In this document: piece after piece, positions 541 to 3,958 of the stretch | Position numbering within the stretch: the stretch's first letter is position 1 | Layout: the number at the start of each line of letters is the position of its first letter | DNA from: a virus | DNA length: 27,003 nucleotides | Virus record (IMG/VR): IMGVR_UViG_3300020154_000014 | Span: 1 to 27,003 of that record | Direction: 5' to 3' (one strand) | Notes under the pieces: model-generated | What the model was told of the DNA's origin: nothing | What the model saw: the letters and a program-made list of their open reading frames with translations, nothing else | Databases searched by the model: none | Position numbers and translations under genes: made by a program

Positions 541-1150
541 TGTGGACTTGTTCACCACTAACAATGATAACAACCTTCTAATAGAACATCTTGTTTATAC
601 ATGTCCCAATCCACCTGTTATCCTACCATTATAATGCGTCCATTAGTAACTGATTGTTAGTATCCACAATTGAGGTACATCTTTTACATTCACCATCTCT
701 AGTAATAGTGAAATAGTTATGTCCTCGCGGACCTCATCGATGTACATAGAGCATCGCCATCCTTTATACGATGGATTAATAATAACAGGCTTATTCTATA
801 TTTGAGAACTACGATGCTTATCCTGTTTTCAATGTTTCAACTTTCGGCTTACTACATCTTCAAGCTTTTAGTTACTGATCTTAAATAACATATAACTACT
901 AACTTCTGGAGCTTCACCAGCCTTCTATAGACTTCTACTTCCGTATTTGACCACTTTTATAACGTGGTCAACGGTCAGTAGAGAGCTTTTTATCCCAAAC
1001 ATACCTCAGCCGATATATCTATAGGATTGTTCTTTGTTAGTAGTTAATATCATAATAACTCTCACAAGGTTGCACCTTGACTTAGCCCATCCCAGCAAAT
1101 ATGCCAGCAATATTATCTTTCGATAGCAATTGGATGAGAGTTATGTATCT
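541..1150 (-). ncRNA. Candidate large structured RNA, about 600 nt
   Basis: No convincing reading frame fills these 610 bases on either strand, although the rest of the window is densely coding. The stretch contains long perfect complementary arms that nest into separate domains. Domain 1: 1055-1064 with 1135-1144 (10 bp), enclosing hairpin 1065-1070/1074-1079 and a tetraloop hairpin 1114-1117/1122-1125 (GAAA loop on the minus strand). Domain 2: 893-903 with 1036-1046 (11 bp), enclosing 925-931/1018-1024, then 935-939/977-981, then hairpin 947-954/964-971. Domain 3: 750-756/812-818 crossing 784-789/822-827 (pseudoknot), with hairpin 757-761/770-774. Domain 4: 675-681/739-745, a three-way junction holding 689-693/708-712 and 721-724/729-732. 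Domain 5: 557-565/653-661. A weak hairpin 542-545/555-558 followed on the minus strand by ATTTTTAATTT may end it. Minus strand is inferred from the flanking genes. No tRNA, RNase P, tmRNA or group I intron signature was recognised. Confidence 0.65.
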
Positions 1151-1384
1151 TTACCACAACCGTATCTCAATAAGATCCAGATACTTTTGTAGAGCATGAC
1201 TTCGTTCAATAACACGTACAAGCATAATCTGTCTTATGGTTCGATCATACACTAACTCATAAAACTCTCCCTTGAAATCAAATAGGAGAGTAGTATAATG
1301 ATAGTATTCAACATTCATCAACAGTTCACCATAATCTAATAGTATGTTTGCTCTATCACCAACTGAGAGTTTATCAAACTCCAT
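1151..1384 (-). CDS. Hypothetical protein (77 aa)
   Basis: I do not recognise this protein. It has 77 residues and opens MEFDKLSVGDRANILLDYGE. Its middle looks like beta strands (YYHYTTLLFDFKGEFYELVYD) and its basic C-terminal part is probably helical. There is no signal peptide or membrane helix. It starts six bases after the stop of the gene at 1391-1642, so it belongs to the same leftward operon, and it is the last coding gene before the folded non-coding stretch. The stop codon at 1151-1153 borders that stretch almost exactly. Confidence 0.6.
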   Translation of the reverse strand: MEFDKLSVGDRANILLDYGELLMNVEYYHYTTLLFDFKGEFYELVYDRTIRQIMLVRVIERSHALQKYLDLIEIRLW

Positions 1385-1390
1385 AATCAG

Positions 1391-1642
1391 TTAATTAAGT
1401 TCAACAACTAAATTGTAATTATCGAGATATGCAGTTATTCTCATATCTCGATTCCGTGCTTCAAACTCAGCAATGGTATATGCAATACTATTGTGTTTAA
1501 CAGTTAAATGCAAACTACCCGAGAATATTGTATTTGGGTATTCATACCAAACCAATAGATCCTTCTTCTGCGCATTAGTATTCACCTCTGGATTTTTCTC
1601 TTGAGGTGGATTATAAGATAAATGATAACCTGTTGGATTCAT
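1391..1642 (-). CDS. Hypothetical protein (83 aa)
   Basis: An unrecognised soluble protein of 83 residues. The first 28 residues are Pro/Asn-rich and probably disordered. The remainder has an alternating hydrophobic pattern (LLVWYEYPNTIFSGSLHLTV) that suggests a small beta fold. Its ATG at 1642-1640 overlaps the TGA stop of the upstream gene at 1639 in the ATGA arrangement, which implies translational coupling and supports this start. Confidence 0.6.
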   Translation of the reverse strand: MNPTGYHLSYNPPQEKNPEVNTNAQKKDLLVWYEYPNTIFSGSLHLTVKHNSIAYTIAEFEARNRDMRITAYLDNYNLVVELN

Positions 1643-1968
1643 AATGATCTTAATTTAGTAAGTATTCGTTCTTTAGGCGTTGTACCTAATACATTATCAT
1701 CACCATCATTTACAAAATATACTAGATTACAATCATTTCCTTCCCATCCTTCTCTACCACCAAATAGTCGCACAAAGGCTTTTGTCTCTTCTGTCATATA
1801 CCAATTACCTTCTGCATCACAATAATCACCTGTTTGTACACCATTTACAATACCCATTCCAACATGATGTAATGCACAATGATTAGGTAATGATCGTTGA
1901 CCTATCAGGTGATCAGGAATAGCCTCGAACTTTTCAATGAACCATTCCTTAGTATATAATTCAGGCAT
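1639..1968 (-). CDS. Conserved phage-type hypothetical protein (109 aa)
   Basis: The frame is open from 2022, but I place the start at the ATG at 1968, giving a protein that begins MPELYTKEWFIEKFEAIPDH. That start lies one base after the stop of the upstream gene (1970-1972) and avoids a 53-base overlap. The layout, an N-terminal KFEAIPD helix, a central CALHHVG segment, then VYFVNDGDD and a C-terminal TPKERILTKL helix, recalls small phage proteins with CALGHxG and VNDG...PKxRIL motifs. I think it belongs to that group, possibly related to DUF6197, but this is by eye. Their function is unknown. It is coupled by an ATGA overlap to the next gene. Confidence 0.65.
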   Translation of the reverse strand: MPELYTKEWFIEKFEAIPDHLIGQRSLPNHCALHHVGMGIVNGVQTGDYCDAEGNWYMTEETKAFVRLFGGREGWEGNDCNLVYFVNDGDDNVLGTTPKERILTKLRSL

Positions 1969-1969
1969 A

Positions 1970-2359
1970 TTATTGTATTTGAACGTATTGATGTGATGTC
2001 TTTCTAAAGACATAATAGTCATTATAGTTTACATCATATACAACACTATCATTTACTTCTCTGTATACAACACCAATCTGATCTTTAACTATATCAGCAT
2101 GAATATGTCTAGGTGTTGAATTACATGAAGTGAAACCGATTGCACATACAATAAAGATCACACAATTAAAAGACTTTTTATTATTTATGTGTTGATCATC
2201 GATTGCGTTGGTGATGTATAATACGAGGCTAATAAGACCAAGGATTGTACATAAGATGAGCCATACATATGTTTTTGCAACGTAATCGTGAATACATGCA
2301 ATGGCAAAGGTTAATGATCCAATCAATAACCAGATGAGAATAAGAGTTGTTGTTGACAC
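1970..2359 (-). CDS. Membrane protein with internal lipoprotein-like segment (129 aa)
   Basis: The reading frame begins MSTTTLILIWLLIG and has two hydrophobic helices (about residues 5-23 and 31-50). A polar Asn/Asp linker follows, then a third segment that looks like a lipoprotein signal: KK, SFNCVIFIVCAIG, then FTSCNS. The remaining 45 residues are polar and rich in Tyr, Val and Asp. It therefore looks like a short two-helix membrane protein fused in frame to a small lipoprotein. I see no ATG at the junction for a separate start; a GTG inside the third segment is the only nearby option. The C-terminal part faintly resembles the lipoprotein at 273-524. It could be a genuine three-helix protein instead. 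Confidence 0.55.
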   Translation of the reverse strand: MSTTTLILIWLLIGSLTFAIACIHDYVAKTYVWLILCTILGLISLVLYITNAIDDQHINNKKSFNCVIFIVCAIGFTSCNSTPRHIHADIVKDQIGVVYREVNDSVVYDVNYNDYYVFRKTSHQYVQIQ

Positions 2360-2518
2360 AGTTAGAGAGTTTAGATTGATAATATAATACGACTAGTTGT
2401 GAGAGTATTGGGAAAGAGAGCAATGAGTATAGAGTACGAACCACCGATCCCGCTTGCGCTCGTATATTCAGCATTGATTATATTACTAGTTATACTCGTT
2501 GCTCATATTATGATAAGA

Positions 2519-2545
2519 GTAAGAGAGGATTATTCCCTCTCTTAC
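2519..2545 (-). terminator. Candidate terminator hairpin after the 79-aa gene
   Basis: A perfect 10-bp inverted repeat (2519-2528 with 2536-2545) with a 7-base loop starts within the stop codon of the leftward gene at 2542-2781. Downstream on the minus strand the sequence is TCTTATCATAAT, T-rich but not a clean T-run, so termination may be leaky. It may instead protect the mRNA 3' end. Confidence 0.5.
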
Positions 2546-2781
2546 AATACGATGTCTTTCTCCACCGCTGCATTTACTATAACATACGCTTTATCTTCAG
2601 GTATTTCTACACCATCAGCATCACGTGTCATAGGTATTACAAACAGTGGTTTATTCAGATCTGTTGTACTACCAATAACAACTGTCTTACCTGCTACAGT
2701 TGTAAATGCATGTCCTTTCCCTTTGTAGAACTGCAACTCTGTCACATTGTGTTTCGTTTTAAAACTTACGAGAGTTTCCAT
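2542..2781 (-). CDS. Hypothetical protein (79 aa)
   Basis: A soluble protein of 79 residues that I cannot assign. The sequence METLVSFKTKHNVTELQFYKGKGHAF followed by TVAGKTVVIGSTTDL has regular alternation of hydrophobic and polar residues and several glycines, suggesting a compact all-beta fold. An acidic C-terminus follows (DGVEIPEDKAYVIVNAAVEKDI). It is separated from the next gene downstream by about 180 bases and carries a hairpin at its stop, so it may end one transcription unit of the leftward cluster. The opposite strand is also open here, but that product is low-complexity Ser/Thr-rich and not credible. Confidence 0.7.
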   Translation of the reverse strand: METLVSFKTKHNVTELQFYKGKGHAFTTVAGKTVVIGSTTDLNKPLFVIPMTRDADGVEIPEDKAYVIVNAAVEKDIVL

Positions 2782-2834
2782 GATGAATTTTATTTACATT
2801 CTAAATTACATGACGGGTACTTCCCATCCATAAC

Positions 2835-3044
2835 TTAGCCGGGGTTGTGGAATGGAGGGGGTTTTAACCACATGGGATTGGCAAAATTTTTCATTTGCTC
2901 TAATTTTTCCTGTACATTATTATCCTTTATATCCTCTTCTCTCTGTACATGAGCAAATACCCATTGTCCTGTGTATGGTATAAATCTAAAGAATAGAACA
3001 CAGCCATTACGATATCGTATTTGATATCTATATCGTCTTTTCAT
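2835..3044 (-). CDS. Hypothetical basic protein (69 aa)
   Basis: An unassigned 69-residue protein with a strongly basic, aromatic N-terminus (MKRRYRYQIRYRNG), a hydrophobic segment CVLFFRFIPYTGQW, a charged middle and a Pro-rich tail (WLKPPPFHNPG). It has no clear signal peptide. The start at 3044 lies 17 bases inside the end of the upstream gene, a frameshifted overlap like others in this cluster. Confidence 0.6.
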   Translation of the reverse strand: MKRRYRYQIRYRNGCVLFFRFIPYTGQWVFAHVQREEDIKDNNVQEKLEQMKNFANPMWLKPPPFHNPG

Positions 3045-3237
3045 AGGGTTTCAGGTGATTAGAATTGACAACTTTTTCATCTTTTATATGGATTCTATCG
3101 AACGATATTGTCTCATATCCATTTCTTCTCAATTCATCAAACTTAGCTTGTATAGTTAAATCAGATTCTGTTAATCTAACATATTCTCCTGTATTAGGAT
3201 GAATCAACACCACGCGATTTATCACTCCCATATTCAT
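3028..3237 (-). CDS. Hypothetical protein (69 aa)
   Basis: A soluble 69-residue protein of unknown function. It opens MNMGVINRVVLIHPNTGEYV, then has a helical TIQAKFDELRRNGYE segment and a strand (ISFDRIHIKD), consistent with a small alpha/beta fold. Its ATG overlaps the TGA of the upstream membrane-protein gene in the ATGA form, which fixes the start and suggests coupled translation. Confidence 0.65.
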   Translation of the reverse strand: MNMGVINRVVLIHPNTGEYVRLTESDLTIQAKFDELRRNGYETISFDRIHIKDEKVVNSNHLKPYEKTI

Positions 3238-3425: not shown

Positions 3426-3720
3426 ATTTTCTTTGGTTAAGTTCTGATGGCGGGGTCTTTCTGTATAAAATAGCACCGGGGACTTCTCCTCTATGTACAA
3501 AATCGGCTAGTACTCGTTTACTTACTAATATTGACTTCTTCATTACCTCCTCTATCATCCCTTTAGGTATATCGTAATGGGGATGATCGTATATTTGTCC
3601 TTTACGTCTATACCAACAACGGTTTATTCCCAAATCGTCAGCCATTTTATGTAAGTTCTCCCGTGTATAGGGGTAACATACTAGGTGTCGGAAGTTATCA
3701 CAAATATAGATGATCTCCAT
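3409..3720 (-). CDS. DUF4031-like protein (103 aa)
   Basis: The product has a DADD-type helix (NLHKMADDLGINRCWYRR, about residues 22-39) followed by an HYDIPKGMIEEVMKKSIL segment (about 48-65). This spacing of an ADD-LGI-W helix and an HYD-P motif is what I know from the small DUF4031 proteins of phages and bacteria, whose function is not established. It is the first gene of the leftward cluster, starting at an ATG at 3720 with the divergent intergenic region upstream. The family call is by pattern and reasonably secure; the role is unknown. Confidence 0.7.
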   Translation of the reverse strand: MEIIYICDNFRHLVCYPYTRENLHKMADDLGINRCWYRRKGQIYDHPHYDIPKGMIEEVMKKSILVSKRVLADFVHRGEVPGAILYRKTPPSELNQRKYETKN

Positions 3721-3798
3721 AGGGTACGAATATAGACTATTTTCTAGTAATCTTATTAATCTTTACACGATTTTTATTGCTTCGTATCAAATTTTTCT

Positions 3799-3958
3799 AT
3801 TGATTGCATCCGTCTCGGGGCAATCAATCTGAACGGTATTAGCGCCGCAGGCACTAGTAGGTAAGAGAGGGAAAGTCACCCTGAAGATCCGTCTTATCCA
3901 ACCTAGACTACATTACGCCCATACTATGCCCTTTTCAATCTGCTTCTAGGAAAGGGCA
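3799..3958 (+). ncRNA. Candidate structured RNA with compact pseudoknot, about 160 nt
   Basis: Four base-paired elements follow one another almost without gaps. They are: (1) a perfect 9-bp hairpin, 3799-3807 with 3820-3828; (2) a short hairpin, 3840-3842/3854-3856 plus 3844-3846/3850-3852 around one mismatch; (3) a bulged stem, 3860-3866 with 3892-3899, enclosing 3868-3871/3879-3882; (4) an H-type pseudoknot, in which 3902-3907 pairs with 3945-3950 and 3927-3934 pairs with 3951-3958, so the two 3' arms are directly adjacent and could stack. The region is also more GC-rich than its surroundings. It could be a separate small RNA or a leader of either divergent transcript, and the strand is uncertain because stems read the same both ways. 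Confidence 0.55.

Follow-up and report, generated by a model that had tools for sequence, protein, structure and literature searches.

The stretch of DNA analyzed here (the window) comprises 27,003 nt of the viral record IMGVR_UViG_3300020154_000014. It belongs to a crAss-like phage: its terminase, portal, and major head proteins match PHROGs 6681, 6547, and 11589, respectively, and the terminase shares 23 to 33% identity with those of Crassvirales. Near the left end, a gap at positions 541 to 1150 separates two leftward open reading frames (ORFs), 273-524 and 1151-1384. This gap had been described as free of genes, and indeed no ORF of at least 60 amino acids starts inside it, the longest stop-to-stop frame spans 58 amino acids, and neither strand holds a frame of note that could represent a degraded gene. 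ORF 273-524, downstream of the gap, starts with MKRLILILLIATGCSKK, which resembles a lipoprotein signal, and has no match in PHROGs. Protein searches with the small neighbors 1151-1384 and 1639-2022 retrieved no relatives, while the terminase search did, and the gap itself, compared with named phages by BLAST, matched them only over short stretches attributable to chance. Neither ARAGORN nor Rfam finds a cloverleaf or tRNA-like domain in the window, consistent with the original prediction that the element is unlike tRNA or tmRNA; no tRNA or tmRNA was found in the 27 kb, the left end of which is cut 541 nt past the gap. A tRNA with a long intron inside the gap was also considered and discarded, as ARAGORN found none when introns of up to 3 kb were allowed.

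The minus strand of the gap, which is the strand of the flanking genes, folds more stably than shuffled sequences (z = -4.9 for 525-1150 against 20 dinucleotide shuffles; z = -3.1 for 541-1150 against 60); the value for the plus strand is -2.4. This signal is unevenly distributed along the minus strand: it is extreme at 889-1050 (z = -6.0), moderate at 1050-1147 (z = -2.0), and ordinary at 541-888 (z = -1.4). Two perfect arms of at least 10 bp with their partner within 170 nt are present (893/1036 and 1055/1135) against 0.076 expected, a number reached in 0.2% of 500 shuffles. Both are the longest arms listed in the original prediction, an 11-bp arm (893-903/1036-1046) and a 10-bp arm (1055-1064/1135-1144), and both turn out to be the closing helices of conserved RNA modules, described below. 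The two shorter arms listed with them, 557-565/653-661 and 675-681/739-745, fall within 541-888, the leader of the leftward ORF 273-524, for which we found no significant fold, no Rfam match, and no relatives.

The 5'-most element of the gap, module A, occupies 1053-1146 on the minus strand, which also carries the other RNA features of the gap given below. Its ends are joined by helix P1, formed by a 5' arm at 1135-1144 and a 3' arm at 1055-1064. The latter adjoins the hairpin P2 (CAAGGUGCAACCUUG, 1065-1079), and a UUGC strand at 1126-1129 can pair with GCAA of the P2 loop (1070-1073). Module A was first related to another locus by an independent blastn match (L002; E = 4e-8 over 44 nt), in a phage whose terminase is 72% identical to that of the window. 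In that phage the equivalent site, with the strand unchanged, has a gap of 140 nt that contains just the 5' portion of the gap seen in the window, and the ends of its module A pair as those of the window do. Pattern scans of 2.9 million viral contigs, together with BLAST of named phages, extended the family to 36 aligned members (alignment A2), including Flavobacterium psychrophilum phages (Fpv20, at 88309-88404, and the FPSV series). A covariance model built from these members (R1), with the window in its training set, scores the window at 71.7 bits (E = 5e-12). The features that define the family, a covarying P1, a UCCAAUUGC strand, and the CAAGGUGCAACCUUG hairpin abutting the 3' arm of P1, are all present at 1053-1146.

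In P1 of module A, the sequence is free to change while the pairing is kept. Two-sided changes are found among relatives at 10 of 10 pairs; RNAalifold, run on A2 without a given structure, recovers the helix with two-sided changes at nine pairs and broken cells only in the outermost, and it also pairs UUGCA with the UGCAA loop. The covariation score of the named structure is 0.243, compared with 0.119 for shuffled alignments (0 of 500 reach the observed value) and at most 0.114 for slid partners. The helix reads GUUCCCG/CGGGAAC in L036 and CUUA/UAAG in L041 and L043, its register is shifted by one pair on both sides in Fpv20 and four other members, and a few G-U pairs are present. Conservation ends at the outer ends of P1. 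Two of the pattern scans for module A left P1 free, so in the members they gave this covariation is not an effect of selection. The P2 hairpin is nearly invariant among members and came out nearly the same in scans that left either its outer pairs or its loop free; a compensatory variant (CAAAG/CUUUG) occurs at L021 10042-10144.

The putative pseudoknot of module A, between UUGC and GCAA, is in part a prediction, because the loop and the strand are almost invariant and covariation therefore cannot prove the contact. In a variant form (A', found in L040, L120, and L135), the P2 hairpin is wholly different and both UUGCA and UGCAA are kept. In L048 and the first copy in L021, UUG is missing from the 5' strand and the loop reads UGGAA, so that both sides have changed together. 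Counting against the pseudoknot, L031 keeps the loop and lacks the pairing strand.

Some phages carry module A in several copies: three in L024, four in L049, and two in L021. The copies in L024 are located at 781, 1119, and 1489 within a gene-poor region of about 2.4 kb (600-3100), and the 60 nt preceding the second differ little from those preceding the third, which would fit duplication of a unit. In L049 (10102-14732; also G015), one of the four copies is degenerate. A scan of bacterial genomes with the module A pattern gave a single 4.4-kb contig (L034) from a metagenome-assembled "archaeon" bin; this is probably a phage contig placed in that bin, other contigs of which carry crAss-like terminases.

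Module B (893-1046) lies directly 3' of module A on the transcript and is built around a longer P1, with a 5' arm at 1036-1046 and a 3' arm at 893-903. Its P2 hairpin (CUGGUGAAGCUCCAG, 906-920) contains a core common to all members (UAGAAGGCUGGUNAAGNUCCAGAA), and an AGCU strand at 984-987 could base-pair with the AGCU at 910-913 in the P2 loop. An additional hairpin at 992-1027 is peculiar to the window, being absent in the other 18 members. A covariance model made from window positions 887-1051 alone (R2) found one relative, L040 5978-6082 (E = 3e-5), which shares with the window a core, UAGAAGGCUGGUNAAGNUCCAGAAGU, and has a compensated P1. Scanning the viral contigs with this core gave 22 loci, 18 of which, L040 included, have the 5' AAAG..CUC strand and P1. 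The other four (L104, L107, L112, and L122) have neither and were rejected as chance matches in coding sequence. With the window, family B comprises 19 members, and the window displays at 893-1046 the defining combination of a covarying P1, an AAAG..AGCUC strand, and the UAGAAGGCUGGUNAAGNUCCAGAA hairpin.

The sequence of P1 is nearly arbitrary in family B. Among 14 distinct members, two-sided changes occur at 11 of 11 pairs; pairing is kept in 14 of 14 at four positions and in 12 to 13 at most others, as counted on a composite alignment from which the variable middle was removed, because MAFFT misplaces P1 in members with an extra base before the core. The covariation score is 0.614, against 0.163 for shuffled alignments and at most 0.163 for slid partners, and it cannot be ascribed to selection, since the viral scan for B left P1 free. 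The strand and the P2 loop also change together: a 5' G goes with a loop G..C/U in 13 members, a 5' A goes with A..A in six, and no mixtures occur. This linked substitution suggests a contact, although A..A does not form a standard pair and the change may be one event. In both families, the search patterns account for part of the invariance of the cores; for B, they fixed the core letters. Shuffles overstate significance, because the sequences are related, and model E-values are rough; the stronger evidence comes from the comparison with slid partners and from the arbitrary sequence of P1. On this evidence we regard it as nearly certain that both RNA families are real. Covariation in homologous intervals, which the original prediction had put forward as its own test, is found for 893-1146, and with conservation over dozens of phages it rules out for this part that AT-rich DNA folds by chance or that a gene has decayed here, a gene of which no notable frame is seen; such an origin, hardly credible for the locus, would concern at most 541-888.

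In the window, 6 nt separate module A from module B on one strand, and the original prediction took the gap as a candidate for a single RNA of about 600 nt, recalling giant RNAs such as GOLLD, ROOL, OLE, or HEARO. That A and B would be domains of one ornate RNA fits this spacing and a habitat like that of GOLLD and ROOL (PMC12286853). Yet the closest relative, L002, has A alone in its 140-nt gap; A is alone in most other contigs too, B being present only in that of L040 among those A contigs to which the B model was applied; and 16 of the 17 B contigs tested lack A, the remaining one (that of L120) having only the weak variant A'. In L040 and L120, A', a small ORF, B, and a tRNA stand in succession, and in L135 A' is directly before the tRNA-Leu. 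The INDEPENDENCE of A and B is therefore that of distinct modules combined as a mosaic rather than a single RNA. Given also the ordinary fold of 541-888 and the absence of an Rfam match, a single large RNA is very improbable. What stands of the earlier proposal is an undescribed structured RNA at 893-1146, in the form of two families of about 95 to 155 nt in tandem; for the left 350 nt or so (541-888), the proposal lacks support.

The two modules have a similar layout and unrelated cores. Each is closed by a P1 of free sequence; a short, near-invariant strand lies beside P1, followed by a variable middle domain and a near-invariant P2 abutting the other arm of P1, and a predicted pseudoknot joins the P2 loop to the strand beside P1. 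A third RNA-like motif, AUAGGUUAAACAUUGAARCCUUUGUGAAUUAAC, occurs at L040 3053, L009 13407, L014 8898, L116 1197, and L117 1162; in L009 and L040 it comes after A, in L116 and L117 after B. About 50 nt past it in L040 is CAAUGUUCACAUAAAGAUAC, which can pair back to the motif, and L009 is similar.

To our reading, neither family corresponds to a known one. None of the 4,227 models of Rfam 15 matched the window at its gathering score or at E <= 5, including those of GOLLD, ROOL, OLE, and HEARO; against 400-1300, only RT-4 appeared, at 17.4 bits (cutoff, 73.5). At the remaining loci of A, the matches were confined to tmRNA and a single hammerhead, elsewhere in the contigs; for B, L111 gave only snoR30, below its cutoff, and the other loci gave only tRNA or tmRNA. 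RF00023, RF04321, and the HDV model do not match A or B. The one hammerhead, of type II (53 bits), is at L030 4803-4877, in a phage contig also carrying A. Two segments, AAUUGCAGG and AAGGUGCA, resemble parts of a group I intron; this candidate was dropped, as the rest of the intron core is lacking and Rfam gave no match. A search of the open-access literature yielded nothing relevant on these motifs or on structured RNAs of crAss-like phages, although unpublished or subscription-only motif lists could contain them. Since there is no Rfam 15 match and no description in that literature, A and B appear to be new as families. Their habitat (phages and tRNA islands) and their kind (compact, pseudoknotted phage RNAs of unknown or processing function, such as GOLLD, ROOL, and theta ribozymes) are known.

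Comparison with these systems shows where the likeness ends. Most similar in habit are theta ribozymes, which are HDV-like: they are small, pseudoknotted, and located within 5 nt of phage tRNAs, phages of Bacteroidota included, and have been proposed to trim the 3' trailers of tRNAs (PMC10879173). In contrast, B is found mostly at the 5' ends of tRNAs. Moreover, in the HDV fold P1 and P2 are interleaved and the ends are not paired together, whereas P1 closes both ends of A and B; the double pseudoknot in the order P1-P2-P3-P1'-P4-P2' is not seen in either module. GOLLD and ROOL (PMC12286853) are likewise pseudoknotted phage RNAs often near tRNA islands, but GOLLD RNAs are in many cases longer than 800 nt and both kinds form multimeric cages, while A and B measure about 80 to 155 nt. 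The comparison drawn in the original prediction is apt for habitat, B residing in phage tRNA arrays, and not for the type of RNA, given the lack of an Rfam match. Type II hammerheads also have a compact core closed by helices, but their core is absent from A and B. The tmRNA or permuted tmRNA gene shares the operon side of A in several phages, but tmRNA has a tRNA-like domain and a tag frame, and A and B have neither. ToxI antitoxin RNAs of type III systems are pseudoknotted and can also occur in tandem, in repeats of about 34 to 40 nt that precede toxN; no toxN was noticed beside the window's copies of A and B, as judged without a profile search.

The genomic place of the modules is remarkably constant. 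In all 23 contigs with both A and a terminase match (the window and 22 others), terL is encoded on the other strand from A, which is 3 to 14 kb before the terL start, the distance being 8.1 kb in the window, 8.3 kb in the contig of L002, and 6.6 kb in Fpv20 (across the record ends). B is placed alike in G042, G045, G047, and G055 (6 to 14 kb) and in G041 (26 kb). Such constancy of strand and position suggests that a single locus has been inherited, and not that the module was inserted at scattered sites. Module A is absent from crAss001, phi14:2, cr118_1, FpV4, ProJPt-Bp1, cr127_1, crAss002, CrAssphage ZA, Fpv2, cr50_1, cr126_1, DAC15, and the more distant phi4:1, all of which were tested, and blastn found B in none of the named phages. 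Since FpV4 lacks the module that Fpv20 has, and crAss001, crAss002, DAC15, and other named Crassvirales lack it too, A is not essential. Two genes and A, at L035 871-1632 of Fpv20, are missing from FpV4 (L054) within a stretch otherwise 96 to 99% identical, and the FpV4 junction coincides with the 3' end of module A, providing a natural deletion for comparison with Fpv20. A site acting at the DNA level (an origin, a packaging or recombination site, or the end of a cassette), with folding incidental, would suit this joint absence of module and genes, with its junction at the module's 3' end, and the nearby packaging genes. We consider such a site scarcely likely, as the strand is fixed relative to the neighbors, a few G-U pairs occur in P1, and tRNA or tmRNA neighbors recur.

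The neighbors are mainly genes on the same strand. According to a simple ORF caller, the nearest ORF is on the module's strand upstream in 27 of 35 cases and downstream in 28 of 35 for A, and in 15 of 19 and 14 of 16, respectively, for B. Many B members reside inside tRNA arrays, which comprise 13, 26, and 18 tRNAs in L106, L110, and L117, and often at close range: B is 7 nt upstream of a tRNA in L040 and L103, 2 nt upstream in L110, and directly before tRNA-Leu in L120, while in L106 it follows a tRNA at a distance of 1 nt. In L135, a relative of the L120 phage, it is A' that stands directly before tRNA-Leu. The 5' half of this tRNA-Leu, after B on the reverse strand of L120, is apparently interrupted by a long insertion, a possible intron; the same gene is less interrupted in L135. 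As for A, a tmRNA gene follows on the same strand at about 0.95 kb in G003, 1.4 kb in G020, 0.2 kb in G031, and about 0.45 kb in G036, where ARAGORN reports it as permuted; in L040, a permuted tmRNA gene (ARAGORN) is at 3463-3817, about 0.5 kb downstream of module A. A is also often found between protein genes with no tRNA near, as in L002 and Fpv20.

Modules so placed could act on transcription. A T-rich run follows the 3' arm of P1 in most A members and many copies sit close behind a stop codon, as would suit terminators or antiterminators made of P1 and a U-rich stretch. But B and A' stand directly before tRNAs, where a new promoter would have no room, a strand scan of the gap shows no intrinsic terminator-like site above chance, and termination would not need an invariant, pseudoknotted core, which makes this role quite unlikely. 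It is a possible, if doubtful, alternative that A and B act in trans or bind a protein (as a small RNA, scaffold, or decoy) and merely share an operon with tRNAs and early genes. The near-fixed sequence and structure of P2 and its flanking strand, the inheritance of the position upstream of terL across terL identities of about 25 to 35%, and copies that are the sole element of a tight gap (L002) are in its favor; the free sequence of P1 and the copies 1 to 7 nt from tRNAs suggest a local role instead, and no promoter or end signal is conserved around module A.

We tentatively propose that A and B are cis-acting modules for the processing or stability of a polycistronic transcript carrying tRNAs, tmRNA, or early genes. 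The two would be transcribed in tandem, A before B, in a leftward unit starting near the packaging genes, a unit that in these phages often also houses tRNAs and tmRNA. Once transcribed, each would fold independently and mark a boundary of processing or stability between the adjoining RNAs, in the boldest form by self-cleavage and in a milder form as a fold that is specifically cut by, or resistant to, a nuclease. Such cis modules would fit the combination, found twice and at tRNA boundaries, of a near-invariant core with a closing helix of free sequence, a variable side domain, and a predicted pseudoknot, and the portability and multicopy state of the modules, the position of A opposite terL, and the adjacency to tRNA and tmRNA also count for processing in cis. 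Against it count the A copies without a nearby tRNA (L002 and Fpv20), the window's own lack of a tRNA or tmRNA, the nearly fixed sequence of the P2 helix, and the absence of A from named Crassvirales. Natural circularly permuted copies, which hammerhead and twister ribozymes have, would support a self-cleaving class without being required of it; none were found among the collected A and B loci.

Going further, A and B might be new classes of self-cleaving RNA that cut tRNA, tmRNA, or early transcripts, or alternatively RNAs that form assemblies on their own; we think this rather unlikely. Read as catalytic, they would possibly represent one architecture, a free closing helix beside a strand-to-loop pseudoknot, used in crAss-like and larger phages. 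In the alternative, by analogy with GOLLD and ROOL, the self-complementary UGCA of A and AGCU of most B members might let copies join. Most helices of known ribozymes are not fixed in sequence, and the nearly fixed P2 helix counts against catalysis; it suggests instead that P2 binds a protein or is packed into a tertiary contact.

Both the tRNA arrays of large phages and the non-coding biology of crAss-like phages are little studied, and two RNA families absent from Rfam, with clear covariation and a fixed genomic place, offer a handle on both. They provide defined candidates in which to look for a new element of RNA processing or RNA assembly; if catalytic, A and B would add new ribozyme classes. 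Because A is present in culturable Flavobacterium psychrophilum phages and absent in FpV4, direct tests of expression, cleavage, and deletion are possible. Finally, the related phages L008, L018, L026, L042, L044, and L046 have repeated 13-mers in common (e.g., TTGACTGACTAAA and TAAACACAACTGCT), some of them shortly ahead of start codons, which may be phage promoters.
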